Part shown: positions 29,465 to 48,719 of the stretch, piece after piece
Layout: the number at the start of each line of letters is the position of its first letter
How positions within the stretch are numbered: the first letter of the stretch is position 1
Assembly: GCA_903827375.1 (NCBI GenBank)
Contig: CAIKHZ010000015.1
Coordinates: 1 to 56,577, forward strand
Origin: Akkermansiaceae bacterium
GTDB lineage: Bacteria; Verrucomicrobiota; Verrucomicrobiia; Verrucomicrobiales; Akkermansiaceae
Length of the DNA stretch: 56,577 nt
Direction: 5' to 3'
Made by a program: the position numbers and the translations under genes
The notes under the pieces: model-generated
Seen by the model: only the letters and a program-made list of their open reading frames with translations
Database searches by the model: none
Told to the model about the DNA's origin: nothing

Positions 29465-29465
29465 G

Positions 29466-30518: not shown

Positions 30519-30529
30519 CCGCTGGTCGG

Positions 30530-30631: not shown

Positions 30632-31597
30632 CTAGCCGCCAATGGCCGTCATCGGACGATTCATGGTAAAATCTTCGGCAAAGGCGTGGTGTTCGGGCTT
30701 GTTGGCAATAGCAGCGAGGATAGCGGCGGGCAGGGAGTCACCGGAACGCAGCGCCTGATGCAAGTCGATCTCTCCGTGGCGGCCGAGGCAGGGACGCAGT
30801 TTGCCATCCGCCGTCAAACGCAGTTTGTTGCAATCCGCGCAAAAATCCGCACAAGTCACCGCCCCGATGAATCCCACCAGCCCGCCGCTGCGGCCAAGCC
30901 GATAGTAGCGGGCGGGCCCATGGCCTAGTGGCTTGCTGGTTGCGGCCTCGAGCGTGTCGTGTCTAGCCAGCAGCGTCATGGCCTCATCCACCCCCAGAAA
31001 ATGCCGTTCATCCAGCGGGCCCCCGGGTGCCAGCGGCATCAGTTCGATGAAGCGCACGGGCATGTGGCGAGCACTGGCAAATTCAGCGAGTGGAATGATT
31101 TGCTCGTCGTTGATTCCCCGCAGCAGGACGCAATTGAGTTTGACGCACTCAAAACCCGCCGCCAGCGCCGCCTCGATGCCGGCCAGCGCGGCACCGAGCC
31201 GTCCACCGGTCAGCTTCTGGTAAACCGCCGCATCCAGCGTATCCAGGCTGATGTTCATTGAGCGCACACCGGCTTGTTTGAGCGGTTCCGCCAGTTTCGG
31301 CAGCAGCAAGCCATTGGTTGAAAGTCCCAGCGCCTGCACCCCGGGAATGTCCCAGATGCGTCGCGCTATGCTCACGATGTCGCTCCGCAGCAGCGGTTCG
31401 CCCCCAGTGAGCCGAAATTTGCGGAAGCCCAGATCCGCCGCGCTCACTGCAATCCGCACGATCTCATCCGCACTGAGGTGTTCGCTGCGCTGCGTCCACG
31501 ACTTGTAGTTCTCAGGCATGCAATACAAACACCTCTCGTTGCATCGGTCGCTCACCGATATGCGGAGGTAATCAATCGTTCGGCCAAAGGAATCCAT
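30632..31597 (-). CDS. moaA: GTP 3',8-cyclase MoaA
   Basis: This is a 321-residue radical-SAM enzyme. The N-terminal 4Fe-4S motif is Cys19-x3-Cys23-x2-Cys26 (DRCNERCLYCMPE) and the C-terminal cluster motif is CADFCADCNKLRL ... CLG. The protein ends in the functional Gly-Gly tail (MTAIGG). It makes the first committed intermediate of molybdenum cofactor. The ATG at 31597 gives the standard MoaA start (MDSFGRTIDYLRISV). It is transcribed divergently from the nar/Moco operon and leads into the kinase-regulator pair. Confidence 0.96.
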   Translation of the reverse strand: MDSFGRTIDYLRISVSDRCNERCLYCMPENYKSWTQRSEHLSADEIVRIAVSAADLGFRKFRLTGGEPLLRSDIVSIARRIWDIPGVQALGLSTNGLLLPKLAEPLKQAGVRSMNISLDTLDAAVYQKLTGGRLGAALAGIEAALAAGFECVKLNCVLLRGINDEQIIPLAEFASARHMPVRFIELMPLAPGGPLDERHFLGVDEAMTLLARHDTLEAATSKPLGHGPARYYRLGRSGGLVGFIGAVTCADFCADCNKLRLTADGKLRPCLGRHGEIDLHQALRSGDSLPAAILAAIANKPEHHAFAEDFTMNRPMTAIGG

Positions 31598-31893
31598 GGT
31601 TCTTAGAAAAAAATGCCTCAAGCGTCACCTCGCGGCCGCCCTTGACGCAACCACGCTGCAAGCCATCCATGCCACCCGCAAGAAAAAAACGAATTCACGG
31701 TAAATTTATCTTGTTTTATTTGCCGAATCCTTCAAAGCTTGTGCGTGTCGCAGTGAAATTCGCAGCGGCGGCCAGCACAACCCTCACTTTCCGACTCAAG
31801 CCCCATGTCCATCAGCGGCAACGCCAGCATCCGTTCCAATGCGGAACCCACCCCTACCCGACTCTCCGGAACCCAATTCACTTAGCCATTGCG
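31598..31893 (+). promoter_or_regulatory. Divergent control region between moaA and the nar operon
   Basis: This is about 300 nt without a convincing gene. An A/T-rich patch at 31681-31727 contains TAAATT (31701-31706), a possible -10 without a matching -35, as expected for an activator-dependent promoter. A TTGACG at 31642 has no -10 at normal distance. I found no perfect FNR palindrome (TTGAT-N4-ATCAA). The leader before the cytochrome start would be long (about 185 nt). Confidence 0.35.
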
Positions 31894-32958
31894 ATGCACG
31901 CCGAGTCAAGACGACTAATCCATGTGGTCTGCCACACCCCGCCCGTTGTGGGGAACCGGCGGCCTGCACTCACCTTGTCAGGCGAGCCGCCTGACATTCG
32001 CTTACCGCTGTGGGTCCAGTGCGCGGTGCTCTGCGGCCTGATGTTGGCCTATATGCCCGTTGCCAGTGGCCAGCAAACAGCCCCGGCAGCAGCCCCGACA
32101 GCAGCCCCGACAGCAGCCCCGGCAGCGGCCCCGGCAGCGGCCCCGGCAGCAGCCCCGACAGCAGCCCCGACAGCAGCCCCGGCAGCAGCCCCGACAGCGG
32201 CCCCGGCAGCAGCCCCGACAGCGGCCCCGGCAGCAGCCCCGGCAGGAGAATCTGACGAGCCGGCGGCACCGGATCTGGTAGCGGCGAAGTTCCTCACGGG
32301 TTGTTCCGGTTGCCATACTCTAACTGATGCGAAGTTGAATGGCCCCGGGTTGTTGACCGCCTCGAGGTGGCCGGCGCAGCAACTTCAGACGGCTATCAAG
32401 CGGATGGAGAAGAACGTCGGACCGCTCAAAGAGGACGAGTTGGTCGCACTGGCGGACTTCATCAAGGATGCCAAAGCCCCGCAACGGCTCGCGGCCGAAC
32501 AAGTGACGATGCAGGCCCGGTTCCTGGCTAAAATGGCCCCGGCCGACGCAGCACTGGGTGCGAGATTGTTTGTCGGTTCGCTAGGCTTTCGCAACGGCGG
32601 TATCGCCTGCGCCGCCTGTCACAGCGTATCCGGAGCGGGCGGCAATCTCGGTCCGGATTTGACTCCCATCTTCGCAAAGATGGGGGGCAAGACAGCCCTT
32701 ATCTCCGCCATTGAAAAAGCCAACTTCAAGATCATGGCACCCCACTACCAGCGCCATCCGGTTACTACCCAGGAAGCGCTGCATCTGACCGAGTACTTCT
32801 CCACTCTCGATGCCAAGGCAGCGCTGGCGGCACGGCCGACATTTGATATGGCAGGCACCGGTCTTGCCGGACTGTTGCTGGCGGGATTGACCGTGTACCT
32901 GCGGCAACAGCGGTCAACCCGCGGCCGCGACAACAAGCTGACCCGAAGGAGAAACTAA
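31894..32958 (+). CDS. Membrane-anchored diheme cytochrome c with Ala-Pro repeat linker
   Basis: This 354-residue protein (with the ATG at 31894) opens the nar operon, 4 nt before narG. A hydrophobic export segment (PLWVQCAVLCGLMLAYMPVA, residues 38-57) is followed by fourteen 4-residue AAPA/AAPT repeats (62-117). Two c-type heme sites follow: Cys137-x2-Cys140-His141 (CSGCH) and Cys239-x2-Cys242-His243 (CAACH). A C-terminal transmembrane helix (about 325-345) has a basic cytoplasmic tail. The start is uncertain. The frame is open from 31642, and a TTG at 31975 would give a shorter, more typical signal peptide. It should shuttle electrons on the periplasmic face, probably with the Rieske/cytochrome b parts of the operon. 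Some nar operons (for example in Thermus) also begin with a cytochrome c gene. Confidence 0.8.
   Translation: MHAESRRLIHVVCHTPPVVGNRRPALTLSGEPPDIRLPLWVQCAVLCGLMLAYMPVASGQQTAPAAAPTAAPTAAPAAAPAAAPAAAPTAAPTAAPAAAPTAAPAAAPTAAPAAAPAGESDEPAAPDLVAAKFLTGCSGCHTLTDAKLNGPGLLTASRWPAQQLQTAIKRMEKNVGPLKEDELVALADFIKDAKAPQRLAAEQVTMQARFLAKMAPADAALGARLFVGSLGFRNGGIACAACHSVSGAGGNLGPDLTPIFAKMGGKTALISAIEKANFKIMAPHYQRHPVTTQEALHLTEYFSTLDAKAALAARPTFDMAGTGLAGLLLAGLTVYLRQQRSTRGRDNKLTRRRN
32077..32244 (+). repeat. Fourteen tandem 12-nt repeats encoding AAPA/AAPT
   Basis: The unit is GC-A/G-GCCCCG-A/G-CA, repeated 14 times without interruption. It encodes a flexible Ala/Pro/Thr linker between the signal region and the heme domains. 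It leaves all six frames open, so the overlapping frames on both strands are artefacts. Copy number is likely to vary by slippage. Confidence 0.95.
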
Positions 32959-32962
32959 ACGC

Positions 32963-35900
32963 ATGAGCTGGATCCAAGACCTATTCGCCCCTGAAGACCG
33001 CACCTGGGAGGCGTTCTATCGCAACCGTTGGGCCTATGACAAAAAAGTGCGCAGCACTCATGGTGTCAATTGCACCGGCTCGTGCAGCTGGGAGATTTAC
33101 GTGAAAAACGGCGTCGTGGTGTGGGAGCTCCAAGCCCTCGATTACCCGATCATCGACTCATCCATCCCACCCTACGAACCCAGAGGCTGCCAGCGAGGTA
33201 TCAGCTATTCTTGGTATATCTATAGCCCCATCCGGGTCAAGTATCCCTACGTTCGCGGCGTGCTGCTCGACTTGTGGCGCAAAGCCAAAAAACAATTTCC
33301 AGGAGATCCAGTCGCAGCTTACGCATCCATTGTCAGCGATCCGCAATCGCGCCAAACCTATCAAAACGCCCGGGGCAAGGGCGGCTTCCGGCGGGCCGCG
33401 TGGGCCGACGTCAATGAGTTGCTCGCGGCGGCCAACCTCCACACCGCCAAGCGCCACGGCCCCGACCGCATTGTCGGCTTCTCGCCGATTCCGGCCATGT
33501 CCATGCTCAGCTATGCCGCTGGCGCGCGTTTTTGCCAACTCATGGGCGGGGTCTCGCTGTCGTTCTATGATTGGTATTGCGACCTCCCGCCGGCCTCGCC
33601 TGAGATTTGGGGAGAGCAAACCGACGTCAATGAAAGCGCCGATTGGTACCACTCGAAGTTCATCGCCACCGTCGGCTCCAACGTTCTCATGACGCGCACC
33701 CCGGACGCGCATTTCCTGGTAGAGGCCCGCCACGGCGGCACCAAAGTGGTGGTCTTCTCGCCGGACTTCAGCCAAACATCCAAGGTCGCCGATGAATGGG
33801 TGCCGTTGCACCAGGGCACCGATGGCGCGTTCTGGATGGCCGTCGGTCATGTTATACTAACGGAAAATTATGCCCAGCGGCAGGTACCCGCCTTCCAGGA
33901 CTATATGCGCCAGTTCACTGATGCGGCCTTCCTGGTGACGCTCGATGCACAGGCCGACGGCAGTTACCGCGCCGGCAAGTTGCTGCGTGCCAGTCATCTG
34001 GCTGATACATGCGGCCAAGAAAACGCCGAGTGGAAATTCTTCGTGGTGGACGCCACCACCGGCACATTGAAAATGCCCAAGGGCACCGTCGGTCATCGCT
34101 GGCAGAAGCAAAAAGGCGACTGGAATCTCAAGCTGGAGGATTGCAACACCCACCAGCCGATCATTCCCTTGCTAGAACTCAAGGATGCGCATGACACCAC
34201 CCTGCCCGTGGCAGTGACCGACTTCTCGGATGGCACCAACGCCAGGGTCATCCTCCGCCACGTTCCCGTCCGCCGCATCGAGACGCTTGACGGTCCGGTT
34301 TACGTCACCACCGCGATGGAATTGTACTTCGCGCAATATGGCATCGTGCGCGGCTTCGACGGCGAATGGCCTAACGGCTATGACGACGCCAGCCAGCCGT
34401 TCACCCCGGCATGGCAGGAATCGTTCACCGGCGTGGCCGCCAGTGTGGCAGTGAATTTCGCCCGTGAATGGGCGCGAACCGCCGAATTCACCGGCGGCAA
34501 ATGCAGCGTCATTATCGGGGCCGGCGTCAATCACTGGTATCATAACAACCTGATCTACCGCGCGGTGATCAACTCGCTGATCTTCTGCGGCTGTATCGGC
34601 AAGAGTGGCGGCGGCTTGAATCATTACGTCGGTCAGGAAAAACTCGTGCCGCAAACGTCATGGGCACCCATCGCGTTTGGCGGCGACTGGGCCGGTCCCC
34701 CGCGCCAGATGAACTCGCCCTCGTTCCACTACATGAATTCTGACCAGTGGCGCTATGACCGCTCATTCAGCGAAATGTGCCCGGTGAGTGACGACAAACA
34801 TGCCATGGCCCACGGCCACACCGCCGATAAAAACGCCATGGCGGTTAGGCTCGGCTGGCTGCCTTGTTATCCGCAATTCACCCGCAGCAACTTCGCGCTG
34901 GTTGAGGAAGCTCAGGCCGCCGGGGCGAATTCCGACGAGGAGATCGTCGCCTGGGTCGTCGCACAGTTGAAGGAGCGCAAACTCAAGTTTGCCCTGGAAG
35001 ATCCCGACAATCCGGAGAGCTTCCCGCGTCTGTTCTATATCTGGCGGGGCAACGCGCTTAGCTCCTCGGCCAAGGGTCACGAGTATTTCCTCAAACACTA
35101 TCTGGGCACACACCACAATTCCATCGCCGAGGAATGCGCCAAACCGGATATCGAAGACGTCGTCTGGCATGACAAGGTGCAACTCGGGAAAATGGATCTG
35201 GTGGTCGATTTGAACTTCCGCATGGATACATCGGCGCTCTACTCCGACATCGTGCTGCCGGCCGCAACCTTCTACGAGAAGAACGACCTCAACTCGACGG
35301 ACATGCACAGCTTCATCCATCCGCTGCAGGCGGCGGTGCCGCCCTGTTGGGAATCCAAGAGCGACTGGGATATCTTCAAGGGCATCGCCGAGGAAACCTC
35401 GCGCATGGCACCGCAGTATTTCCCCGAACCAGTCAAAGATATCCTCGTCTCGCCGCTCATGCACGACACTCCGGCGGAACTCGCCCAACCCACCGTCAAG
35501 GACTGGGCCAAGGGCGAATGCGAACTGATCCCGGGCAAAACCGCCCCTAACATAAAAGTCGTCACCCGCGATTTCAGCCAGGTTTACCAACGATTCATCT
35601 CGCTCGGACCCAATTTCCGCAATAACGGCCTAGCCATGCACGGCACCCACTACGACGTGGACGACGCCTACGACGCGTACCTGGAGACGCATCCCACCGA
35701 GTCATGGGGCGGCAAACGTTACCCGAGCCTGCGCGTCGATAAAGACGCCTGCAACGTGATCCTGCACTTCGCGCCGGAAACCAACGGCGAAATGGCTTGG
35801 CGCGCCTATGAAAGCGAGTCCATCAAAACCGGTATCGACCACACCCACCTGGCGCGAGACACCCGAGCGGTGCGCTATACCTTCGATGATCTAACCACCC

Positions 35901-36595
35901 AGCCTCGGCGCACTCTCACCACGCCGTTCTGGACGGGCATCACCAATGGCAAGCGCACCTACGCCGCCTATTGCCAGAACATTGAGGAGAAAATCCCGTT
36001 CCGCACCCTTACCGGGCGCCAGCATCTCTATCTGGATCACGAATCCTACATCGCTTTTGGCGAAAACCTACCAACCTTCAAACCGCGCGGCGAGTTGCGC
36101 CAGACCCGCGATCTGGTCCAGACGCCTAGGGGCAGCGGTGGCATGGTGCTCAACTACCTGACACCCCACGGCAAGTGGCACATTCATTCGACTTACGGCG
36201 ACACCTTGCGGATGAAGACACTCTCGCGAGGGTGCTATCCGGTGTGGGTCAATGACAAGGACGCCGACCTCATCGGCATCGGTGACAATGACTGGGTGGA
36301 AGTGTTCAACGACCACGGCGTCGTGTGTACCCGCGCCATCGTCAGCGCCCGCATTCCCAGCGGCATCTGTCTGCTCTATCATGCCCCGGAGCGCACTCTG
36401 GGCGTGCCCAAGTCTCCGGAACGTGGCATGCGTCGCGCCGGGGTTCACAACAGCCTCACTCGCACCCGCATGAAACCCTTGTTCATGATCGGCGGCTACG
36501 GCCAATTCACCTACGCCTTCAACTATTGGGGCCCCCAAGGAGTCAACCGCGATACCTTCGTCATCGTGCGCAAATTGCAGCAAGTTGTTTACTAG
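32963..36595 (+). CDS. narG: Respiratory nitrate reductase alpha subunit NarG
   Basis: This is a 1210-residue molybdopterin oxidoreductase that reduces nitrate to nitrite at a Mo-bis-MGD centre. The FS0 4Fe-4S motif is His33-x3-Cys37-x3-Cys41-x34-Cys76. The Mo ligand region is YDWYCDLPP with Asp207, followed by IWGEQTDVNESADWYHS. The C-terminal cofactor-binding region includes CYPVWVNDKDAD. There is no twin-arginine leader, so the enzyme is expected to be on the cytoplasmic face as in classical NarGHI. The length is close to that of E. coli NarG (1247). It follows the diheme cytochrome by 4 nt and precedes narH by 15 nt. It needs the NarJ chaperone and the Moco genes at the end of the same operon. 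Confidence 0.97.
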   Translation: MSWIQDLFAPEDRTWEAFYRNRWAYDKKVRSTHGVNCTGSCSWEIYVKNGVVVWELQALDYPIIDSSIPPYEPRGCQRGISYSWYIYSPIRVKYPYVRGVLLDLWRKAKKQFPGDPVAAYASIVSDPQSRQTYQNARGKGGFRRAAWADVNELLAAANLHTAKRHGPDRIVGFSPIPAMSMLSYAAGARFCQLMGGVSLSFYDWYCDLPPASPEIWGEQTDVNESADWYHSKFIATVGSNVLMTRTPDAHFLVEARHGGTKVVVFSPDFSQTSKVADEWVPLHQGTDGAFWMAVGHVILTENYAQRQVPAFQDYMRQFTDAAFLVTLDAQADGSYRAGKLLRASHLADTCGQENAEWKFFVVDATTGTLKMPKGTVGHRWQKQKGDWNLKLEDCNTHQPIIPLLELKDAHDTTLPVAVTDFSDGTNARVILRHVPVRRIETLDGPVYVTTAMELYFAQYGIVRGFDGEWPNGYDDASQPFTPAWQESFTGVAASVAVNFAREWARTAEFTGGKCSVIIGAGVNHWYHNNLIYRAVINSLIFCGCIGKSGGGLNHYVGQEKLVPQTSWAPIAFGGDWAGPPRQMNSPSFHYMNSDQWRYDRSFSEMCPVSDDKHAMAHGHTADKNAMAVRLGWLPCYPQFTRSNFALVEEAQAAGANSDEEIVAWVVAQLKERKLKFALEDPDNPESFPRLFYIWRGNALSSSAKGHEYFLKHYLGTHHNSIAEECAKPDIEDVVWHDKVQLGKMDLVVDLNFRMDTSALYSDIVLPAATFYEKNDLNSTDMHSFIHPLQAAVPPCWESKSDWDIFKGIAEETSRMAPQYFPEPVKDILVSPLMHDTPAELAQPTVKDWAKGECELIPGKTAPNIKVVTRDFSQVYQRFISLGPNFRNNGLAMHGTHYDVDDAYDAYLETHPTESWGGKRYPSLRVDKDACNVILHFAPETNGEMAWRAYESESIKTGIDHTHLARDTRAVRYTFDDLTTQPRRTLTTPFWTGITNGKRTYAAYCQNIEEKIPFRTLTGRQHLYLDHESYIAFGENLPTFKPRGELRQTRDLVQTPRGSGGMVLNYLTPHGKWHIHSTYGDTLRMKTLSRGCYPVWVNDKDADLIGIGDNDWVEVFNDHGVVCTRAIVSARIPSGICLLYHAPERTLGVPKSPERGMRRAGVHNSLTRTRMKPLFMIGGYGQFTYAFNYWGPQGVNRDTFVIVRKLQQVVY

Positions 36596-36610: not shown

Positions 36611-38104
36611 ATGGACGTCAGAGCTCACGTATCCGTTATTTTCCACCTCGACAAGTGCATCGGTTGCCACACTTGCAGCGTCGCCTGCAAGAACGTGTGG
36701 ACAGACCGCCCGGGTGCCGAATACATGTGGTGGAACAACGTCGAAACCAAGCCCGGCACCGGCTATCCAACCCGTTGGGAGGACCAGCAGAAATTCAACG
36801 GCGGCTGGCAGTGGGACGGGGCTGGCAAGTTGCGGACGCGCTGCCAGAGCAAGGCGGATTCATATCTGAAGCTGTTCTACAATCCGAACCAGCCCAACCT
36901 CGATGATTACTATGAGCCGTTCACCTACAAGTACGACGATTTGTTCACGGCCAAGCTCAGCGACGACCAACCGACAGCGGTTCCAATTTCACTGATCACC
37001 GGCGAGCCGATCGAAATCAAGAGCGGCCCGAATTGGGATGACGATTTGTCAGGCTCGCCGATCTATGCGGAAAACGACCTCAACCTCGACAAGCTAACCG
37101 AGGAAGAGCGCAACCAGTTGTTTGAGGTGGAGCGCCTGACAATGTTCTATCTCCCGCGAATCTGCAATCACTGTGCCAATCCCACCTGTGTCGCAGGATG
37201 CCCGTCCGGTGCCATCTACAAGCGGGGCGAGGATGGCATTGTCCTCATCAACCAGGAGAAATGCCGCGGTTGGCGCGCCTGCGTCGCCGCCTGCCCCTAC
37301 AAGAAAATTTATTACAACTGGAAGACCGGCAAGAGTGAGAAATGTGTGCTGTGTTTCCCGCGCTTGGAAACCGGCCAACCTCCGGCGTGCTTTCACTCGT
37401 GTGTGGGCCGCATCCGCTACATGGGCGTCATGTTGTATGACGCGGACCGGGTGCCGGACGCGATGAAGGTGCCTGACCGCGCATTGGTGGAAAGCCAGCG
37501 CATGGCGTTTCTCGATCCGAACGATCCGCAGGTGATTGCCGCCGCGCGCAAGAATGGCATCAGCGAGGAGTTTCTGGATTCCGCCAAAAACTCGCCAGCG
37601 TGGAAGTATATCATGGAGTGGAAGTTGGCGCTGCCGCTGCACATCGAATACCGCACGATGCCGATGCTTTTCTATGTGCCGCCCCTCCTGCCTGTGATGG
37701 GCAAGTCATCCAATGGCACCTACAACCATGACGCCAAGGACTTTTTCACCAGTCTCGACCAATCGCGCCTGCCACTGAAGTACTTGGCCAGCCTGTTCAG
37801 CGCGGGCAACGTGGACATCATCGAAGCGGTGATGCGAAAGCTCATGGCCGTTCGCTACTTCAAGCGCTGGCAGAGCGTGCGCGACATGGATGAGAACGAC
37901 GTGAATAAAATCCTGCGAGAAGCGCGCACCACTCCGGAAGAAGTCGAGCAGATCTATGCGATGACGGCCATCCCGACGCATTTCCAGCGCTTTGTGTTGC
38001 CGCCACTGCAGCGCGAGGAGGCCATCGAAAGCAGTTGCAGTCCGGAAGCATGCAAGGGCTGCACAGGATTCTCCCTCGAACCCACCTTCCATCCGCGAGC
38101 ATGA
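36611..38104 (+). CDS. narH: Respiratory nitrate reductase beta subunit NarH
   Basis: This is a 497-residue iron-sulfur subunit carrying electrons from NarI to NarG. The first cluster motif is CIGCHTCSVACKN (Cys16/19/22/26). The central motifs are CNHCANPTCVAGCPSG and CRGWRACVAACPYKK. The Trp in CRGW replaces a cysteine, as in NarH proteins generally, marking the 3Fe-4S centre. The last motif is CVLCFPRLETGQPPACFHSC. The C-terminus has an extra cysteine-containing tail (SSCSPEACKGCTGFS) seen in part of the family. It is cytoplasmic, bound to NarI. Confidence 0.97.
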   Translation: MDVRAHVSVIFHLDKCIGCHTCSVACKNVWTDRPGAEYMWWNNVETKPGTGYPTRWEDQQKFNGGWQWDGAGKLRTRCQSKADSYLKLFYNPNQPNLDDYYEPFTYKYDDLFTAKLSDDQPTAVPISLITGEPIEIKSGPNWDDDLSGSPIYAENDLNLDKLTEEERNQLFEVERLTMFYLPRICNHCANPTCVAGCPSGAIYKRGEDGIVLINQEKCRGWRACVAACPYKKIYYNWKTGKSEKCVLCFPRLETGQPPACFHSCVGRIRYMGVMLYDADRVPDAMKVPDRALVESQRMAFLDPNDPQVIAAARKNGISEEFLDSAKNSPAWKYIMEWKLALPLHIEYRTMPMLFYVPPLLPVMGKSSNGTYNHDAKDFFTSLDQSRLPLKYLASLFSAGNVDIIEAVMRKLMAVRYFKRWQSVRDMDENDVNKILREARTTPEEVEQIYAMTAIPTHFQRFVLPPLQREEAIESSCSPEACKGCTGFSLEPTFHPRA

Positions 38105-38805
38105 CCTCAGCCGCCAGTTATCCCCCGGCCTCCGCAGTCGCAAGTTTCTCCACCAAACTTGCCCTGCTCAGCCGCTTGTTGAGCTATCCGGCAGCGGACT
38201 TCGAGCAGGTTCTCTCCATGGCTTTGGCCACTGTGGGGGGGCTGCCGCTGGCGGAGTTTCAGCAGGCCCTCAGTGAGTTGGATCAAGACCAACGCGAGGA
38301 GTTATACACCGCCACTTTTGACGTGATGCCGCGTTGCGTGCCTTATGTGAGCATTCACTTGTTCGGTGAGGAAAACTTTAAGCGAGGCGAGTTCATGGCC
38401 GCCCTCAACAGCCAGTATGAGCTTCAGCAGTTTGATACCGAAGGGGAATTGCCGGATCATCTCGCGGTGATCCTGGGTTATGCCGCGTCGCTAAATGAAC
38501 CGGCCCGCCGTGAGTTGGTTGAGTTCTGTCTGCTCGGACCGCTGGCAAAAATCCACAGCGCTTTGCCTGACGATCATCCCTACCGGTTTGCACTTGTTGC
38601 CCTCGACGACACACTGCGCGGCAATTATCCCGGTATTCAAGCCCCTCTCAGCCCGCTCGACCAAATGCGCCAACACGGCCTCTGCCCAACCGTAACCGAT
38701 GGCTGCAATTGCGGCCCGCAGCCACAGCCCATCATCGATGGCCCCCTCGAGCATGGCCTGGCCGCTCAGGCCGGCGGTTCGTCCACCTCTTCTCTAACAT
38801 TCTAA
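38101..38805 (+). CDS. narJ: Nitrate reductase assembly chaperone NarJ
   Basis: This is a 234-residue NarJ-type all-helical chaperone that aids Moco insertion and membrane attachment of NarGH. The start is the ATG at 38101, which overlaps the narH stop (ATGA). A longer frame upstream is an overlap with narH. The conserved region FDVMPRCVPYVSIHLFGEEN is near residues 75-95, and LPDHLAVILGYAA lies near 120. The tail ends in a Cys-containing, low-complexity stretch. It is not part of the final enzyme. Confidence 0.92.
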   Translation: MTSAASYPPASAVASFSTKLALLSRLLSYPAADFEQVLSMALATVGGLPLAEFQQALSELDQDQREELYTATFDVMPRCVPYVSIHLFGEENFKRGEFMAALNSQYELQQFDTEGELPDHLAVILGYAASLNEPARRELVEFCLLGPLAKIHSALPDDHPYRFALVALDDTLRGNYPGIQAPLSPLDQMRQHGLCPTVTDGCNCGPQPQPIIDGPLEHGLAAQAGGSSTSSLTF

Positions 38806-38810: not shown

Positions 38811-40127
38811 ATGATTGACGCATTCCTATTTATCGGGCTTCCCTACATAGCATTGATCGTGGCGACGATTGGTTGTGTGCGGCGGGCCCGTTTCAGCAAG
38901 TTCTCGATGTCTGCGCGCTCCTCGCAGTTCTTGGAGGACCGTCAGTTGCTGTGGGGCTCGGCACCCTGGCACATCGGCATCATGGGCGTGCTGGCAGGGC
39001 ACGGCATCGCTTTGTTGCTGCCACAAGTCTGGTCGTACATCCTGACAGTCCCGCCAGCCATGTACCTCATTGAAACCGTGGGCGTGGCCTGCTCCCTGCT
39101 GGCCCTCGCCGGACTGAGCACGCTGATCTATCGCCGCCTAACTTCCGCACGAATTCAGGCGGTGACGACCACTTCGGATCTATTGGTGGTGGCGTTGTTG
39201 TTCCTGCAGGTGCTTGTGGGACTCTTGTCGGCCGTCAGCTTCCGCTACGGCTCGGCGTGGAGCACCGCCACGGTCGTGCCATATTTCTGGAGCCTGCTGG
39301 CTCTGCAACCGGACATGAGCTATGTATCCGGGTTTCCAATGTTGTTTAAATTGCATCTGATTGGCGGTTGGCTGTTTGTCCTGCTGCTGCCATTCACGCG
39401 GCTCATTCACATCCTCGCTGTGCCATTCCAATATCTGTGGCGCGCTCCACAACTGGTCATCTGGAATACCACCCGCCGCCGCAAGCAGGCGCTGGCCGCC
39501 TCTATCCGGGCGGAGAGCCGCCGCGAATTCATCAAGGGAGCCGCGGGGGTGACGGGTGCCACCGGCTTGCTGGCCCTGGGAGTTTCGTCCAAGGCGATCA
39601 ACTTCTTCAAGGGAGCCAGCCAGGACCCGGAAGCCGAGTCCGCCCTGCTAGAAAAAAAACTTCAGCGCTTGAAGCTCACCGCTGAGGAACGCTCCTATGA
39701 GTTGGAGCGTCAGCGAAACACAATGATCTTGGTGGCAGGCTATGCCGAACTGGACGCAGTCAAGGGCAAGTATTTCATTGACTATGCCATGGCACCGGGG
39801 CTCGCGTTCAAGGGCAAAGATGGCATGCCCATCGTGATCTCCGCCAAATGCACTCATCTCGGGTGCACCGTCAGCAGCACGCTCGATGAAAACGGACGCA
39901 TCATGTGCCCCTGCCATATCTCGTACTTCGATATACTCACTGGAATGCCGAATCCGGGCGCGCCGGCCAAGGCACCGTTGCCGCAGATTGCCTGGGCGTT
40001 GGTGGATGCAGGCGGCAAAGTGCTGGCCAGCAACACGCCGGGGCAGGCTTCTGGCAAGGTGGCAGCGCCGGAGGCGCTGGCGCAGAGCAGTTTGTATATC
40101 ACCAAGCCGGGAAAGACAGCGGCATAA
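38811..40127 (+). CDS. narI: NarI-Rieske fusion: nitrate reductase gamma subunit joined to a Rieske 2Fe-2S domain
   Basis: This is a 438-residue two-part protein. Residues 1-215 are a NarI heme-b subunit with five membrane helices and all four heme ligands: His54 and His64 (H-x9-H, PWHIGIMGVLAGH) and His182 and His200 (H-x17-H, LHLIGGW ... RLIH). Then comes an internal twin-arginine motif S236-RREFIK followed by a hydrophobic helix (about 242-260). Next is a charged linker, then a Rieske domain: box 1 CTHLGC (Cys347, His349, Cys352) and box 2 CPCHIS (Cys366, Cys368, His369). The usual CPCHGS glycine is an isoleucine. No stop or frameshift separates the parts. The start is the ATG at 38811, 5 nt after narJ; the frame opening at 38709 overlaps narJ. 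The predicted topology puts NarI in the membrane with NarGH inside, and the Rieske domain outside as a Tat-dependent sixth helix. That is similar in principle to polytopic actinobacterial Rieske proteins. It should pair with the cytochrome b encoded next. Confidence 0.92.
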   Translation: MIDAFLFIGLPYIALIVATIGCVRRARFSKFSMSARSSQFLEDRQLLWGSAPWHIGIMGVLAGHGIALLLPQVWSYILTVPPAMYLIETVGVACSLLALAGLSTLIYRRLTSARIQAVTTTSDLLVVALLFLQVLVGLLSAVSFRYGSAWSTATVVPYFWSLLALQPDMSYVSGFPMLFKLHLIGGWLFVLLLPFTRLIHILAVPFQYLWRAPQLVIWNTTRRRKQALAASIRAESRREFIKGAAGVTGATGLLALGVSSKAINFFKGASQDPEAESALLEKKLQRLKLTAEERSYELERQRNTMILVAGYAELDAVKGKYFIDYAMAPGLAFKGKDGMPIVISAKCTHLGCTVSSTLDENGRIMCPCHISYFDILTGMPNPGAPAKAPLPQIAWALVDAGGKVLASNTPGQASGKVAAPEALAQSSLYITKPGKTAA

Positions 40128-40174: not shown

Positions 40175-41275
40175 ATGAACGCCAAAGAGATCCTGAGTCA
40201 CACCGAGAAGTACCTCGCCGAGCGCTTGCCGGTCGAGAAAATGAATTATGCCTCGATGGTGCAGAAGAAGGAGGTTCCGGTTCATGGATTGGCCTGGGGC
40301 TACTACATTGGCGGCTTGGCGATGTTTTTCCTGATGGTGCAGATTGCCACCGGCCTGATGCTGTTGTTTTACTATCAGCCGACGGTCAGTGATGCTCACG
40401 CATCGGTTGAGTACATCACCGAGCAAGTGCCCGCCGGGGCGCTGGTGCGCAATGTTCATGCCTGGGCATCGTCACTCATGATCGGCAGCGTGTTGGTGCA
40501 TTTGCTAACAGCCTTCGCGATGAAGGCGTTTGAAAAGCCCCGTGAGCTCACCTGGGTGACCGGAGTGCTGTTGTTGGGAATTACTTTTGGCTTTGGCTTC
40601 ACCGGATACTTGCTTCCGTGGCACCAGGTTGCGGTCAACGCCACAAAGATCGGTCTCCAGACTATTGAGCAAATCGGTGGCTACCTGCCCGGGCCTATGG
40701 CCGAATGGCCGCGCCTGGTGAAGGAGATTATCCAAGGCGAGGCCTCGGTGGGGCAGGCCACGCTGAGCCGGTTCTTTGCCATTCACGTGATCGTGTTGCC
40801 GCTGGCGATTTTCGGGGTGCTCGGCTTCCATCTGGTGTCGGTGCAATTGCACGGCATGAGCAAAGGGGTCGATGAGAAACCCCGGCGGATGGAGAAATTC
40901 TTCCCGACGTTTTTGCTCAAAGATCTTCGTGTGTGGGGAATTGCGTTCATGGTGTTGTTCATCCTCGGTGTGTGCCTGCCGTTTGAGTCTCTGTTTGCCT
41001 ATCCGCTCTTTGAGCCGTTCGACGCGAAGGGATCCACGCCGGACGGCATCAAACCCGAGTGGTATTTCTTCTGGGTTTACTACCCTCTGGAGTTGCTGCC
41101 ACTATGGGTTATCCTGTTAGGTTCCGCCGTGCTGGCGCTGGTGCTCCTGGCAACCCCGTGGATCTTCCAAAACACCAACCGCAAGACCCTTCGCTTGGTG
41201 GCCATCGCGGCCGGCATCTATCTTCTGGTAATGACCCTCTTCGGCGAAAATATCTATCACCTCTTCAAAGGCTAA
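40175..41275 (+). CDS. Cytochrome b (bc/b6f-type quinol oxidase subunit) of the nar operon
   Basis: This 366-residue integral membrane protein has two heme-b ligand pairs: His95/His109 (H-x13-H) and His204/His219 (H-x14-H). The x14 spacing is typical of the b6-type rather than the mitochondrial type. The Qo-site motif Pro-Glu-Trp-Tyr is at 294-297 (IKPEWYFFWVYYPLELLPL). Both the b6-like and subunit-IV-like halves are in one chain, as in bc1. The N-terminus has an amphipathic helix (LSHTEKYLAERLPV). With the Rieske domain fused to NarI just upstream and cytochromes c on both sides, it should form a complete quinol:cytochrome c oxidoreductase. It begins 47 nt after the fusion gene. Confidence 0.92.
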   Translation: MNAKEILSHTEKYLAERLPVEKMNYASMVQKKEVPVHGLAWGYYIGGLAMFFLMVQIATGLMLLFYYQPTVSDAHASVEYITEQVPAGALVRNVHAWASSLMIGSVLVHLLTAFAMKAFEKPRELTWVTGVLLLGITFGFGFTGYLLPWHQVAVNATKIGLQTIEQIGGYLPGPMAEWPRLVKEIIQGEASVGQATLSRFFAIHVIVLPLAIFGVLGFHLVSVQLHGMSKGVDEKPRRMEKFFPTFLLKDLRVWGIAFMVLFILGVCLPFESLFAYPLFEPFDAKGSTPDGIKPEWYFFWVYYPLELLPLWVILLGSAVLALVLLATPWIFQNTNRKTLRLVAIAAGIYLLVMTLFGENIYHLFKG

Positions 41276-41277: not shown

Positions 41278-41901
41278 ATGCGCTCCAATCCGCTCACCGC
41301 TTGTTATCCCGTGCTGGTCCTGCTTGCCCTCGCCGGGACATCCCGTGCCTATCCGGAATTTCAGAGGGCGATCAGCCTGAGTTCCGGACGCACGGTCAAT
41401 TGTGCGATGTGCCACGTGCACTCGGATGGTCCGGAGGGCAATGCACCTGGGCAAATTGGCCACCTCAGTCTTGCCGAGCAAACGGAGCTTGGGCGGGCGC
41501 GGGTTGCGTTTGAGCCAAACGCCAGCGTCAAGAGCCCCATTCTCAATGCCTTTGGCAATCACATCATCAACAGCCTCGGCAGGAAGCAGTTCTTGGAATT
41601 GCGGGTCACGCCTGGGGAGTTGGCTAATCGCCTGCCCAAGGACAGTGATATGGACGGCGATGGCATCAGTGATGCGGATGAATTGCGGGCTGGTACCCAT
41701 CCACTAATCAAGAGCGATGGCCGCCCGTGGTTGCTTTTTAAAGCCAATCTATCAGCCAATCTCGGACAGATCCTGCTGATGCTTGCCGCCACAGTGCTGG
41801 GACTCTGGGGCCTGCAGCACCTGCTACATGGCTTCGACGTCGCCACCCGTCTGGAGGACGACGAGGAAGCGGACGAGCCTCACAATTCCACGCCGCACTG
41901 A
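41278..41901 (+). CDS. Membrane-anchored monoheme cytochrome c with calcium-binding motif
   Basis: This is a 207-residue protein. A Sec signal peptide (PLTACYPVLVLLALAGTSRA) is followed by one heme site Cys42-x2-Cys45-His46 (CAMCH). A calcium-loop motif DSDMDGDGISDADE (about 122-135, EF-hand/thrombospondin-3 style) comes next. A C-terminal transmembrane helix lies at about 158-180 (ILLMLAATVLGLWGLQHLLHG), with an acidic tail. The start at 41278 is 2 nt after the cytochrome b stop; the longer frame upstream overlaps that gene. It is the natural candidate for the cytochrome c1-like partner of the Rieske/cytochrome b pair. That is inference from position and anchoring, since it does not resemble cytochrome c1 in sequence. 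Confidence 0.85.
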   Translation: MRSNPLTACYPVLVLLALAGTSRAYPEFQRAISLSSGRTVNCAMCHVHSDGPEGNAPGQIGHLSLAEQTELGRARVAFEPNASVKSPILNAFGNHIINSLGRKQFLELRVTPGELANRLPKDSDMDGDGISDADELRAGTHPLIKSDGRPWLLFKANLSANLGQILLMLAATVLGLWGLQHLLHGFDVATRLEDDEEADEPHNSTPH

Positions 41902-43357: not shown

Positions 43358-44743
43358 ATGAATGCAAGCAAATTGCCGATCGCTGCCAGCACGAGCTCCG
43401 CAGAGAGCCGGACAGTTTTGACGCTATCCACGATGGCGTTTACGCTGATGTTTGCGGTGTGGTTGATGTTCGGTGTGCTGGGGATTCCGATTCGCAAGGA
43501 GTTCGGACTCAGCGACGTGCAATTCGGATGGCTAACTGCCATAGCGGTGCTCAATGGATCGATCTGGCGTCTGCTTTTCGGCCTGTGGACGGACCGCTTT
43601 GGTGGGCGCCTGGTGATGACTCTTCTGGTCGGGGCCACGGCTATTCCTGCCTTCATGGTGAGCCGTGCGAGTACCTTCACTGAGTTGATGATCTACGCAT
43701 TCCTTGCTGGCATGGCGGGCAACGCGTTTTCGGTGGGCATTGCCTGGTGCTCGGCCTGGTATCCCCGCCAGCGCCAGGGCTTTGCGCTAGGTGTGTTTGG
43801 TGCGGGTAATGTCGGCGCCTCGGTGACCAAAATCATCGGGCCGTGGTTGATTGGCTTGGTGCCTGCTGCGGGCTACATCGGCGGGTTTGTGCCCGGAGGT
43901 TGGCGCTTCGTGCCGATGCTTTACAGCGGCTTACTCATCGTGATGGCCGCAGCCATCTGGATGAGCTGCCCACGCCACGATCACAAACCCGGGGCCGGGC
44001 GCCCAATCCGTGATTTGCTGCGGCCCCTGCGGCAGATGCGGGTATGGCGCTTCAGCTTGTATTATGTGGTTGTGTTCGGGGCGTATGTGGCGCTGTCAAT
44101 GTGGTTGCCAAAATACTACGTGGATGTATTTGGGATGGAGTTGAGAGATGCGGCGTTGCTGACGGCGCTGTTTATATTTCCGGCGAGCTTGCTGCGGCCG
44201 TTCGGTGGCTGGCTCTCTGACAAGTTTGGTGCGAGACGGATCATGTACTGGGTGTTCTGGGTAATGTTGCTGGCCCTCTTGGTGCTCTCCGCGCCGCAGG
44301 GCCACATCGTCCTGTATGTGCCGAAGAAGATTCACGAAAGCGGCCAGGTTGAGACGCTGCGTTTCGTGATGGGACCCTATCTGTTCACCTTGCTGGTGTT
44401 TGTCGTCGGTTGCGGCATGGGCATCGGCAAGGCAGCCGTGTACAAGCATATTCCAGAATACTTCCCGAATGATGTCGGCGCGGTCGGCGGTCTGGTGGGT
44501 TTGTTCGGCGCTCTTGGCGGTTTTTTCCTACCCCTGTTGTTTGCCTATTCATTCAAAGCCACCGGTATTCCCCAGACAACGTTCGCAATTTTGTTTTGCG
44601 TCACTTTGGCGAGTCTCATCTGGATGCATCTGGTGGTGTTGAAGTTGCTCAAGCGCGCCACGCCGCATTTGGATCATGTATTTGAAGACCATGGACCGAG
44701 GCCACACGAACCACTCAACTATTCCGACGAGATTCCCGGCTAG
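43358..44743 (+). CDS. narK: Nitrate transporter, NarK type I
   Basis: This is a 461-residue MFS transporter starting at the ATG 43358 (the frame is open further upstream but overlaps the first narK). The TM5 signatures (GMAGNAFSVGIAWCSAWYP, then GVFGAGNVGASVTKIIGP) are of type I, the proton/nitrate symporter class. Tandem type I plus type II NarK genes (sometimes fused, as in Paracoccus) are usual in nitrate respirers. The symporter starts nitrate uptake and the antiporter sustains it once nitrite accumulates. Confidence 0.9.
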   Translation: MNASKLPIAASTSSAESRTVLTLSTMAFTLMFAVWLMFGVLGIPIRKEFGLSDVQFGWLTAIAVLNGSIWRLLFGLWTDRFGGRLVMTLLVGATAIPAFMVSRASTFTELMIYAFLAGMAGNAFSVGIAWCSAWYPRQRQGFALGVFGAGNVGASVTKIIGPWLIGLVPAAGYIGGFVPGGWRFVPMLYSGLLIVMAAAIWMSCPRHDHKPGAGRPIRDLLRPLRQMRVWRFSLYYVVVFGAYVALSMWLPKYYVDVFGMELRDAALLTALFIFPASLLRPFGGWLSDKFGARRIMYWVFWVMLLALLVLSAPQGHIVLYVPKKIHESGQVETLRFVMGPYLFTLLVFVVGCGMGIGKAAVYKHIPEYFPNDVGAVGGLVGLFGALGGFFLPLLFAYSFKATGIPQTTFAILFCVTLASLIWMHLVVLKLLKRATPHLDHVFEDHGPRPHEPLNYSDEIPG

Positions 44744-44893: not shown

Positions 44894-46147
44894 ATGAAAA
44901 GAAAATCCATACTATTGATAGCCAGTGCCGGCATGCTGCATGCCGGGAATACAGAACCTACGGTGCAGGTGCAGGTGCCTGCTGCCGATAGCAAGTGGAT
45001 AACCCCGCTCTTAGACATTCGAGCCCGCTACGAGTACGCGGGTGTTGACGGGAAGGATCCATCGACGGCATTGACCCTACGGGAGCGCATCGGGTTGAAA
45101 ACGAAGGCATGGAACGGCTTCAGCGGCTTGGTGGAGGGTGAATTCACCGAAGTGCTTGGGGCGGACTACAATAGCGGTGCCGGGCCACAGGCCTATCCAT
45201 CAGATCGGGCCAATTCGGTGATAGCCGATCCGCGCAATGCCGAGCTCAACCAGGCGTTTCTCCAATACGATGGGTTTGATACGGTTGCTAGAGTCGGCCG
45301 GCAGCGTCTTATATATGACAATGCCGCATTCATCGGCAATAGCGGCTGGCGGCAAAACGAGCAAACATTTGATGCAATCTCTTTAAGCAACAAATCCATC
45401 GATGGACTGACGCTGAAGTATGCCCACCTCACCCAGGTGAACAGGATTTACGGGAGTGAGGCGAACTCAGCGCTCACCACGGCACCGCTGTTTGACAACG
45501 TCGCGGATGTGTCTGCCAACGTCAATCTGTTCAACGCATCGTACACCGGCATCAACGGGCTGACGCTCGGCGGCTACGCCTATCTCATGGATTTTGAACA
45601 CAAGCGGAATTGGGATAACAACACGTTCGGTGTGAGCGCGAAGGGGGACGTGATGGATTTGACGCTGTATGGTGAAGTTGCGGTGCAGGACCGTTCGGGA
45701 TTGGCCGCGGATGGGCAGGCGTTTTACGGGCACTTTACGGCCACTAAGAAGATAGGCGACCAGACACTGGTGCTCGGGCTGGAAGAACTCGGCGCGGGAT
45801 TCAAGACGCCGCTGGCGACGGTGCATACGTTCAATGGCTACGCCGACGCGTTCATTGGCGGGCGGATCGAGGGTAACCACCACGGATTGACCGATGTGTA
45901 TATCTCGCACGCATTGCCGATATGCTATGGCATACAGTGGACGAATGCGCTGCATGCATATGGCGACGATGAGATCTCGACGGGCTATGGCTGGGAGGTT
46001 GACTCGGTGTTATCCAAGAAATTTGACGATCACTTCAGCTCCATTGTCAAATTCTCATTGTTTGAATCCAATGGAGCGGCGTTTGTCGGCAGCACCGGCT
46101 TGCCCACAACGACCCGGCTCTCCATGGAACTGGACTACACGTTCTAA
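44894..46147 (+). CDS. Outer-membrane porin-like beta-barrel in the nar cluster
   Basis: This is a 417-residue protein with a short signal peptide (MKRKSILLIASAGMLHAG). The body is a beta-barrel ending in the aromatic motif SMELDYTF. The repeated pattern (LTLRERIGLKTKAWNGFSGL, VARVGRQRLIYDNAAFIGNS, GWRQNEQTFDAI) resembles alginate-export-type porins. The start at 44894 is chosen from the signal peptide; the frame is open from 44771. Its place between narK and moeA suggests passage of nitrate, nitrite or molybdate across the outer membrane. No selectivity can be read from sequence. Confidence 0.7.
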   Translation: MKRKSILLIASAGMLHAGNTEPTVQVQVPAADSKWITPLLDIRARYEYAGVDGKDPSTALTLRERIGLKTKAWNGFSGLVEGEFTEVLGADYNSGAGPQAYPSDRANSVIADPRNAELNQAFLQYDGFDTVARVGRQRLIYDNAAFIGNSGWRQNEQTFDAISLSNKSIDGLTLKYAHLTQVNRIYGSEANSALTTAPLFDNVADVSANVNLFNASYTGINGLTLGGYAYLMDFEHKRNWDNNTFGVSAKGDVMDLTLYGEVAVQDRSGLAADGQAFYGHFTATKKIGDQTLVLGLEELGAGFKTPLATVHTFNGYADAFIGGRIEGNHHGLTDVYISHALPICYGIQWTNALHAYGDDEISTGYGWEVDSVLSKKFDDHFSSIVKFSLFESNGAAFVGSTGLPTTTRLSMELDYTF

Positions 46148-46151
46148 CGAT

Positions 46152-47354
46152 GTGAGCCTGTTGCCTTTCAGCGATGCCAGGAGCCGGCTGCTTGGTGCAG
46201 TGACGCCGATGGCAGCTGAACGTGTGCCCATCTGGGAGGCTGCTGGCCGGGTTCTGCGCGAGCCGCTGGTGGCCGACCGCATGCAGCCGCCATTCGACCG
46301 GGTGATGATGGATGGCTTCGCCTTGCGTGCAGCGGAATGGGGCAGGTTGTCGGGCTTTCAGGTGACTGGGGTCGGGCACGCGGGGCAAGTGGCTGCGCTG
46401 CTGCCGTTAGGGGCGGGGAATTGCATCGAGGTGATGACCGGGGCGAGTTTGCCATTGGGTAGTGACTGCGTGGTGCCAATCGAGCAGGTGGAGAGGCGCT
46501 GCGGGGCTGACATCTGGTTTGCAGCGGATGAGCCTCCGCAGCCGGGGGGATTTGTGCACAAGGCTGGCAGTGATGTTGAGAGCGGGCGGCAGTTGGTTTT
46601 GCCAGGTCGTCTAATCGGCGCGCGGGAAATTGGAGTGGCCGCCTCATTCGGCTACTCGACCCTTGCGGTGGCCAAACCGCCCCGCATCGCCATTGTTGCT
46701 ACCGGAGACGAGTTGGTGTCAATCGACGCCCGTCCATTGCCGCATCAAATCCGTCAATCCAATGGTCACGCGATCGCGGCAGCGTTGCGAGTGGCGGGCT
46801 ATCCGGCCGGTGGGGTGACCTTGTTAGGTGATGATGAGGTGGTGGCCGCGAGGGTGCTGGATGGGCTCATGGAAGTGCATGACTGGTTAATCCTAAGTGG
46901 TGCGGTGTCCAAGGGTGCGAGGGATTTCGTGCCTGAGACGCTCGAGCGCTTAGGGTGCCGACGGCTGTTTCACGGCGTGGCGCAGCGTCCCGGCAAACCG
47001 ATGGGCTGTTGGATCGGACCGGCCGGTCAGATGCTTCTTGCCTTGCCGGGCAATCCGGTGTCGGCGCTTACCACCTTGCATGTATTGGCGCTGGCCGCAC
47101 TGGATCATGCAGCGGGCCGCAGCAGCGGGCGCACATGCCAGGTGATCATGGAAGGATCGGTGCCCTGGCATGTGCGCTTGACGACTCACCTGCCGGTTCT
47201 AATCAATGCTGCCGGACTTGCCCAAGCGGTGCCTCCGTCCAACAGCGGGGATTTCGCAGGTTTGCTCAGCAGCAGCGGTTGTGTTACCTTGCCGCCCATG
47301 CCGGAACGCCTGCAGCCGCTACCACAATCCTATGCTTTTCTCCCCTGGCTATGA
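46152..47354 (+). CDS. moeA: Molybdopterin molybdenumtransferase MoeA
   Basis: This is a 400-residue MoeA. Conserved blocks are PPFDRVMMDGFALRAAEW near residue 40, GNCIEVMTGASLPLGSDCVV near 95, the MPT-binding domain (IAIVATGDELV, HQIRQSNGHAI, LILSGAVSKGARDFV), and GKPMGCWIGPAGQMLLALPG NPVSA. It inserts molybdate into adenylated molybdopterin. The start is a GTG at 46152, 4 nt after the porin stop. The frame is open upstream but overlaps the porin. It shares a 4-nt ATGA overlap with moaC. Confidence 0.93.
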   Translation: MSLLPFSDARSRLLGAVTPMAAERVPIWEAAGRVLREPLVADRMQPPFDRVMMDGFALRAAEWGRLSGFQVTGVGHAGQVAALLPLGAGNCIEVMTGASLPLGSDCVVPIEQVERRCGADIWFAADEPPQPGGFVHKAGSDVESGRQLVLPGRLIGAREIGVAASFGYSTLAVAKPPRIAIVATGDELVSIDARPLPHQIRQSNGHAIAAALRVAGYPAGGVTLLGDDEVVAARVLDGLMEVHDWLILSGAVSKGARDFVPETLERLGCRRLFHGVAQRPGKPMGCWIGPAGQMLLALPGNPVSALTTLHVLALAALDHAAGRSSGRTCQVIMEGSVPWHVRLTTHLPVLINAAGLAQAVPPSNSGDFAGLLSSSGCVTLPPMPERLQPLPQSYAFLPWL

Positions 47355-47848
47355 ATCCCATGAACCCTAACCTAACCACCCTGACCCATGTTCGCGATGG
47401 CAAGCCGACCATGGTGGATGTGGCAGACAAGCCGGAGACCCGCCGCAGTGCGATTGCCGAGGCGGTGGTAGAGCTTGGCGCGGAGGTAATGGCCCGGTTT
47501 TCTAACAATGAAATCCAAGGCCCCAAGGGCCCGGTGTTGCAGACGGCTATCATTGCAGCGACCATGGCGGTGAAGCAAACCAGCACGCTCATTCCCTTTT
47601 GTCATCCGCTGCTGCTTGAAAACTGCGAGGTGCGAATCGAAGCCACCGCCACCGGGGTGAGGATTCACTGCGAGGTGTGCTGCACCGGCAAGACCGGCGT
47701 GGAGATGGAGGCGATGACCGGAGCCTCAGCCGCCGCCCTAACTATTTATGATATGACAAAGGCCATCAACAAGGGCGTCGTCATCCAATCCGTTCGATTG
47801 CTATCAAAAACAGGAGGGAAGTCCGGCGACTACCAATGCTCACCGTAA
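47351..47848 (+). CDS. moaC: Cyclic pyranopterin monophosphate synthase MoaC
   Basis: This is a 165-residue MoaC. It shows THVRDGKPTMVDVADKPET at the N-terminus, the active-site region TSTLIPFCHPLLLENCEV (about 77-94), and the C-terminal GVEMEAMTGASAAALTIYDM with the catalytic aspartate. It turns the MoaA product into cPMP. The ATG overlaps the moeA stop by 4 nt. A second ATG three codons later is also possible. The 3' end overlaps mobA by 13 nt. Confidence 0.96.
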   Translation: MNPMNPNLTTLTHVRDGKPTMVDVADKPETRRSAIAEAVVELGAEVMARFSNNEIQGPKGPVLQTAIIAATMAVKQTSTLIPFCHPLLLENCEVRIEATATGVRIHCEVCCTGKTGVEMEAMTGASAAALTIYDMTKAINKGVVIQSVRLLSKTGGKSGDYQCSP

Positions 47849-48707: not shown

Positions 48708-48719
48708 TCTATCAAACAC

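Follow-up and report, generated by a model that had tools for sequence, protein, structure and literature searches.

In the textbook nitrate reductase, NarGHI, electrons come directly from quinol and 2 H+ are conserved for each nitrate. Thermus thermophilus has a variant cluster, narCGHJIKT, whose cytochrome c (NarC) has been proposed as a fourth Nar subunit and interacts with NarI in two-hybrid assays (PMC7694296). In Streptomyces coelicolor, Nar1 is reported to require and copurify with bcc-aa3, and the authors argue that the ~505 mV between menaquinol and nitrate is enough for a Q cycle that yields 4 H+ where 2 are usual, an outcome that they calculated to be feasible (PMC7931247). In haloarchaea, according to a secondary account, Rieske/cytochrome b and nitrate reductase genes share a gene cluster and the activity is antimycin-sensitive (PMC4683180). 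Finally, both nar operons of Geobacter metallireducens start with a diheme c-type cytochrome gene, with narK-1 and narK-2 present in the main one (PMC2700814).

The locus analyzed here lies on an Akkermansiaceae contig (GenBank assembly GCA_903827375.1, contig CAIKHZ010000015.1, positions 1 to 56,577 of the forward strand), and this whole stretch of 56,577 nucleotides is called the window. It contains a nar operon in which narI continues in frame into a Rieske domain, each half of the fusion belonging to a known family. The features of the operon are as follows.

31642..32958, + strand: narC-like diheme c-type cytochrome with a C-terminal membrane anchor (Pfam Cytochrom_C and Cytochrome_CBB3; blastp to Thermus NarC); the true start of this frame is uncertain, as a long Ala/Pro-rich stretch comes first
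32963..36595, + strand: narG, catalytic subunit (TIGR01580, 1509 bits, cut-off 1084)
36611..38104, + strand: narH, iron-sulfur subunit (TIGR01660, 629 bits, cut-off 524)
38101..38805, + strand: narJ, chaperone (TIGR00684, 59.5 bits, cut-off 59.35); start placed at the first Met past narH, the listed frame opening at 38035
38811..40127, + strand: narI-Rieske fusion, 438 aa (Pfam and NCBIfam profiles, homologue scan)
38811..39464, + strand: NarI domain of the fusion, residues 1-218, five hydrophobic helices, His54/64/182/200 (Pfam, hydropathy, alignment)
39465..39518, + strand: linker, residues 219-236 (comparison of fused loci)
39516..39605, + strand: twin-arginine motif SRREFIK and the next helix, residues 236-265 (Pfam, model, motif comparison)
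39606..39725, + strand: helical stalk, residues 266-305 (alignment, AlphaFold model)
39726..40124, + strand: Rieske head, residues 306-438, box 1 CTHLGC at 347-352 and box 2 CPCHIS at 366-371 (Pfam, alignment, model)
40175..41275, + strand: b6-like cytochrome b, 366 aa, His95/109/204/219, PEWY at 294-297 (Pfam, PDB similarity, alignment)
41278..41901, + strand: mono-heme c subunit with signal peptide, CxxCH, TSP3-like stretch and C-terminal helix
41928..43343, + strand: narK-like MFS transporter 1 (Pfam MFS_1), kept beside most fused loci
43358..44743, + strand: narK-like MFS transporter 2 (Pfam MFS_1); start chosen at a Met, the listed frame running from 43304

Compared with the E. coli type of enzyme, the NarG, NarH, NarJ and NarI products pass their family cut-offs and the four NarI heme ligands are kept, whereas the window NarI carries a Rieske domain and lacks the quinol-site Lys, and the operon adds bc-type and c-type partners. 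The order of a diheme c gene, narG, narH, narJ, narI and two MFS transporter genes is that of the Thermus cluster, and the diheme cytochrome c gene in front of narG is homologous to narC (blastp against that single sequence: 34% over 97 aa, E 3e-13). In contrast, Thermus NarI is unfused and keeps an Arg that is lost here, and the annotated stretch of the Thermus locus (L066) shows neither a Rieske nor a cytochrome b gene. As for the other systems, the Rieske protein of Geobacter is NirD, encoded in the minor operon, with no cytochrome b/Rieske pair described in the accessible text (PMC2700814), while in the haloarchaeal/Methanoperedens system the nitrate reductase is located on the outside of the membrane, with no fusion described in the sections at hand. 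The S. coelicolor system is similar in that its nitrate reduction is proposed to be bc-fed, but its Nar1-bc link is non-covalent and its bcc complex is shared with an oxidase. The NarI-Rieske gene resembles a covalent version of what was proposed there.

The first-pass annotation had described positions 38811-40127 as one frame in which NarI, a Tat motif and a Rieske domain follow each other, and this reading is borne out by the profiles of both families. Translation gives a single stop-free frame of 438 residues that spans both halves. Specifically, Nitrate_red_gam (PF02665) covers residues 4-218 (E 8.6e-62, 209 bits versus a cut-off of 22.9), the narI equivalog TIGR00351 is passed (147 bits versus 105.55), and Rieske (PF00355) matches at residues 328-391 (33.6 bits versus 20.3); SRREFIK and both cluster-binding boxes are present, with TAT_signal at residues 236-253 falling below its threshold (19.5 versus 22.7). 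The chain also scores below the bc1/b6f Rieske equivalog cut-offs of NCBIfam, the best model being bc1_QcrA_actin (43.4 of 275 bits), with 29.6 of 97.4 bits for TIGR01416.

A scan of genome contigs from 84,980 species with two short peptide patterns returned 21 loci, of which 18 contain a further full-length fusion, two (L050 and L051) contain the Rieske part only, and one (L053) is broken. In the latter, from a MAG titled Methylacidiphilum, the NarI frame of a nar stretch (523-747) stops after ~64 residues, reflecting either an assembly break or a real interruption; with 73 residues matched it was left out of all fusion counts. A NarI search of the 21 genomes from which these loci come added one more fused operon (L071), present in the Obscuribacterales genome that also holds L051. 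Because the two-pattern scan missed L071, the total of 20 fused loci (the window, the 18 scan hits and L071) is a lower bound. L042 is on the same contig as the G004 match and as L003, L032, L068 and L103 and was counted once, and L069, L070, L098 and L101 duplicate loci already counted. A search for NarI and Rieske in one chain therefore finds at least 20 loci from several phyla, with hosts in Verrucomicrobiota (including Akkermansiaceae), Planctomycetota, Bacteroidota and Melainabacteria/Obscuribacterales. The 18 scan-derived fusions are 43-83% identical to the window protein, its nearest relatives being three Akkermansiaceae proteins (L033, L034 and L040, 78-83%). No earlier description of a NarI-Rieske fusion was found in the accessible parts of the open-licence full-text literature.

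PF02665 matches 11 of 387 sampled Verrucomicrobiota genomes, with three strong matches (E < 1e-50), two of which are NarI-Rieske chains (the window's genome and G004) and one a NarI-diheme cytochrome c fusion. Among 392 Planctomycetota genomes 90 have a match, and of the 54 strong rows (E < 1e-45) three are NarI-Rieske (G397, G398 and G399, the genomes of L043, L044 and L045) and one is a NarI-cytochrome c fusion (G711), in a sample that is centred on G397, itself a NarI-Rieske genome. Thirty of these 54 rows were read as loci, four more long frames were read and G398 was read as L044, the genome of which appears within this sample; the remaining 19 were judged by frame length only (219-314 residues).

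The fused proteins are uniform in construction. All 20 are 437-441 aa long, the motif contains Arg-Arg in 19 and Lys-Arg in one, and its onset lies 37 residues past the last heme His in 16 of 20 (35-38 in all of them). The linker is by eye the least conserved stretch of the alignment; dN was lower than dS in four of four pairs tested, and by this comparison it is under purifying selection. Synthesis of two products by internal initiation was considered and rejected: possible start codons between the last heme His and the twin-Arg motif occur in 19 of 20 loci, with a Shine-Dalgarno-like stretch in only two of 20. His54/64/182/200, which the first-pass annotation had named as NarI heme ligands, align with E. 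coli NarI His56/66/187/205, and all four are kept in 20 of 20 fused proteins, as are the CTHxGC and CPCH boxes. PF00355 is matched by all 21 Rieske rows, and PF02665 together with PF00355 by the 19 fusions tested. The same annotation had pointed to the Ile of box 2, but this residue is peculiar neither to the window protein nor to the fusion: the position is Val in 11, Ile in eight and Leu in one of the 20 fused proteins, and Val or Ile in the two stand-alone Rieske proteins. A Phe is invariant in the 21 aligned Rieske rows at the position of the bc1 Rieske Tyr, which we take to be a hydrogen-bonding residue.

On a simple hydropathy scale the NarI part has five hydrophobic stretches with its charged loops to one side, and Arg and Lys abound in the region past helix 5, which runs into the twin-Arg motif and its helix; that scale misses this helix, but it is present in the AlphaFold model. 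This charge distribution fits a NarI C-terminus that is inside the cell, with the Tat helix leading from there to the outside. No Tat motif was seen on reading the N-terminus of NarG; this, together with the charge pattern and the twin-Arg motif, would place NarGH inside and the Rieske head outside. Both parts of an earlier proposal, that one membrane anchor joins cytoplasmic NarGH to the periplasmic Rieske protein of a bc complex and that the chain crosses the membrane accordingly, are thus supported at the level of predicted topology, by the heme ligands kept in the NarI part, and by the adjoining genes for a cytochrome b with its four His and PEWY and for a c-heme subunit with signal peptide and C-terminal helix. 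The stand-alone Rieske proteins start just before the same motif (TRKHF in L050, DRRTF in L051), so that the internal motif of the fusion matches the leader of an ordinary Rieske protein. The AlphaFold model of the fusion (21 rows; mean pLDDT 75, pTM 0.47) is mostly above pLDDT 80 in the NarI helices and the Rieske head and about 40-65 at residues 200-270, values that do not fix the mutual placement of the two halves. Foldseek matches the model to E. coli NarI, with 3ir6_C as the best row (TM-score 0.78, normalised to target length), and its C-terminal part to Rieske ferredoxins and to the Rieske protein of spinach b6f.

Actinobacterial QcrA, in which Tat is used for the last helix, is similar in having a Rieske head behind several membrane helices, and bc1_QcrA_actin is also the best NCBIfam Rieske model for the window chain, although below its cut-off. 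The difference is that the front helices of the window chain are a full NarI with two heme sites. The fusion therefore poses a membrane-insertion question, that of a polytopic heme protein with a Tat motif in its last part.

The operon runs from the diheme c gene through narG, narH, narJ and narI-Rieske to the cytochrome b and mono-heme c genes, usually with narK-like genes behind them. The diheme c gene is 5' of narG in 17 of the 17 fused loci that reach that far (the contigs of L037, L039 and L048 begin later), cytochrome b is 3' of the fusion in all 20, the mono-heme c gene is present in 19 of 19 (the L046 contig ends inside cytochrome b), and narK-like matches occur in 16 of 19, with none in the stretches of L042, L049 and L071. 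Among PDB entries the cytochrome b is most like b6, and all 15 aligned rows (13 from fused loci, two stand-alone) share the four heme His as well as PEWY. CxxCH occurs in every one of the 20 mono-heme c rows, 18 of them from fused loci and two stand-alone, with no other His or Met conserved throughout; the model of this protein is confident (pLDDT 88.5) and gave no PDB fold match in Foldseek at E up to 10. Its N-terminal motif, [Y/F/H]PEFQ...GRxVNCxxCH, presumably recalls mature cytochrome f, a resemblance that we treat as a lead only; in cytochrome f the N-terminal amine binds the heme. With bc-type cytochrome b, Rieske and c genes in one operon, a quinol:cytochrome c oxidoreductase covalently tied to a cytoplasmic nitrate reductase appears to be encoded. 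The window's genome contains a second Rieske gene with part of a cytochrome b elsewhere (C236), so the bc complex beside nar would be an additional one. It also contains a COX1-type oxidase (C241) and a further COX1 match beside NrfD- and c-type genes that is ACIII-like by reading (C128).

Fused and unfused NarIs differ in a basic residue near the quinol site. The position aligned with E. coli Lys86, which we assume serves quinol binding, is Lys or Arg in 33 of 34 unfused NarIs (28 from Planctomycetota, those of Thermus, E. coli, Paracoccus and Paraburkholderia, and L067; the 34th, from one Streptomyces, has Tyr) and is Ala, Val, Phe, Ile, Leu or Met in all 20 fused ones. A K86A mutant of E. 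coli NarI and a Q-site inhibitor complex are among the PDB titles (1y5i and 1y4z, respectively). All 29 unfused NarIs of the Thermus/Planctomycetota type, which align with the fused proteins gap-free at this residue, have the corresponding Arg in the TM2-TM3 loop (WNxxxxR), and none of the 20 fused ones has it. Limiting the pattern to the first 110-115 residues gives the same result (0 of 20 fused, 29 of 34 unfused). Searched over the whole protein it matches eight fused proteins, and the match in the window protein, at least, lies in the linker. The contrast is also seen within one genome (G400), where the unfused NarI (L067) has Lys at this position and the fused one (L046) has Val. The unfused nar set of that genome, its second beside the fused one, is at L072, 1-4260, and its NarI has this Lys.

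There are limits to this comparison. When seven rows outside the 34 unfused NarIs were added (five extra NarIs and two NarI-cytochrome c fusions), a two-residue gap entered the Lys86 column for fused and Thermus-type rows alike, so whether the lost Arg is the counterpart of E. coli Lys86 varies with the alignment. Tyr in this column in the NarIs of Niallia, Rhodococcus and two Streptomyces, that is in Bacillota and Actinomycetota, weakens Lys86 as a universal mark of quinol use. Furthermore, the fused NarIs form one clade (SH-aLRT 100 in a quick tree that gave long-branch warnings for Thermus and Streptomyces), and the loss may thus be a single event. The NarI of Streptomyces NBC_01230 looks frameshifted.

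A dedicated Nar-bc unit is very likely. That the operon codes for a covalent NarGHI-bc supercomplex, the joining in one chain concerning by sequence the NarI and Rieske parts only, and that electrons are led back to NarGH by way of c hemes and NarI, is in our judgment somewhat more probable than its alternatives together. Menaquinol would be oxidised at the Qo site of cytochrome b, with one electron passing to the periplasmic Rieske head and the other being recycled via the b hemes in a Q cycle. The high-potential electron would then move via the mono-heme c protein, the NarC-like diheme protein or both to the NarI heme on the periplasmic side, and from there across the membrane to NarH and to NarG, the site of cytoplasmic nitrate reduction. 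In this scheme NarI would no longer be a quinol oxidase and would instead act as a membrane wire fed by c hemes, with a yield of 4 H+ per nitrate instead of 2. It is conceivable that the NarC homologue upstream and the mono-heme c subunit downstream make up the electron path back into NarI; the first-pass annotation mentions neither of these c-type subunits. This proposal best explains, in combination, a conserved fusion with a full set of heme and cluster ligands in either half, the Qo motif of the cytochrome b, two anchored c-heme proteins and the loss of the Arg. The interaction of Thermus NarC with NarI and the dependence of S. coelicolor Nar1 on bcc-aa3 also speak for it. The complete version, a menaquinol:nitrate oxidoreductase in which NarI does not oxidise quinol and is part of a bc complex with an unfamiliar c subunit, a Q cycle and 4 H+, has in our estimate an even chance of being correct. 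The fusion thereby points to a single machine whose energy gain from nitrate respiration could be double the usual one; having Nar and bc in one chain makes bc-fed nitrate reduction directly testable and would change the energy yield expected of the uncultured carriers. If the proposal is true, NarIs that have lost a basic residue close to the quinol site could guide the search for further nitrate reductases that are fed by cytochrome c.

Retention of all NarI heme ligands is also what would be seen if NarI still oxidised menaquinol directly, with the Rieske protein and cytochrome b feeding c hemes for periplasmic nitrite, NO or other acceptors and the fusion only keeping the two branches together. 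Thermus NarC has indeed been proposed as an electron carrier to nitrite and NO reductases (PMC7694296), and a Rieske-cytochrome b-c module stands alone in L051 and in L050, the genome of which has no NarI match. Against such parallel branches are the absence of the loop Arg from 20 of 20 fused NarIs, the oddity of a NarI fusion as a way to serve periplasmic acceptors, and the lack of any recognised gene for a nitrite or NO reductase in the part of the window examined. We judge this arrangement to be unlikely, although it is the most probable of the alternatives. A second alternative is that the fusion does nothing but set subunit ratio and membrane insertion, with no electron exchange between bc and Nar. 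The weak conservation of the linker sequence speaks for such an assembly aid, but the conserved linker length, the conserved operon with its two c-type proteins and, again, the lost Arg make it quite improbable. Similarly improbable, and slightly more so, is use of the system in reverse, where nitrite would be oxidised and NarGH would pass the electrons by way of NarI and c hemes either to an oxidase or, if energy is put in, via bc to quinone. A Thermus-like cluster of Nitrobacter works as a nitrite oxidoreductase (PMC7694296), the same direction has been suggested for the Geobacter enzyme with its diheme c gene (PMC2700814), and the window's genome encodes oxidases; nevertheless a path from nitrite to an oxidase needs no fused Rieske protein, two narK-like transporters follow in most loci, and NarG and NarH pass nitrate reductase equivalog cut-offs, which do not tell the two directions apart. 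An assembly error, or two genes read as one, would be the remaining explanation, and even though all 18 scan-derived loci are titled MAG it can practically be dismissed, given that the identical join, with near-constant linker and total length, recurs in 20 loci of several phyla, that the fused NarIs are one clade and that the linker appears to be under purifying selection. The NarI-Rieske fusion is, on this comparative evidence, certainly real.

In the NarI tree the nearest unfused row is L077 of the Planctomycetota sample (support 91), and its cluster (L121) has narGHJI and narK matches without a Rieske or cytochrome b match. When cytochrome b and Rieske rows were concatenated for a second tree, L051 grouped with the fused loci L046 and L071 (88 and 99 support), as if its NarI part had been lost after duplication, while L050 was on a long branch with an unsure place. 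A stand-alone Rieske-cytochrome b-c module as the ancestral state is therefore not supported. The L051 module (8983-11349) is a second copy beside the fused operon of its genome (L071). The L050 module (8330-11350) lies behind a DOMON-domain gene and, with no NarI match in that genome, is a case of this bc module occurring independently of Nar.

Another type of fusion, in which a diheme cytochrome c comes after NarI in one chain, occurs in a Verrucomicrobiota genome (L119, 9452-10993, - strand, 512 aa), where the frame follows narGHJ matches, and in a Planctomycetota genome (L120, 13898-15385, + strand, 495 aa). NarI has thus been joined to periplasmic redox domains at least twice. Two planctomycete nar clusters have an unfused narI (L118, about 7300-14349, - strand; L122, 8874-17743, + strand) and, downstream, genes for a pentaheme c protein, an FeS/molybdopterin-like protein and NrfD, which constitute an ACIII-like set. 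There may be more than one instance of Nar linked to a quinol:cytochrome c oxidoreductase. The loop Arg is kept in both of these clusters (L088/L122 and L115/L118), indicating that such linkage does not always go with loss of the Arg.

Several further genes surround the operon in the window. Upstream, response regulator and sensor-kinase-like genes (28790-30557, - strand, by reading) form a possible nitrate control system. Molybdenum cofactor genes like moaA, moeA, moaC, mobA and moaE, also by reading, flank the operon at 30632-31621 (- strand) and about 46000-49700 (+ strand). Lastly, an Ala/Pro/Thr repeat is located at 31642-32320, before the diheme c domains, and the oxidase frame on contig C241 has similar Ala-Pro repeats at its end.
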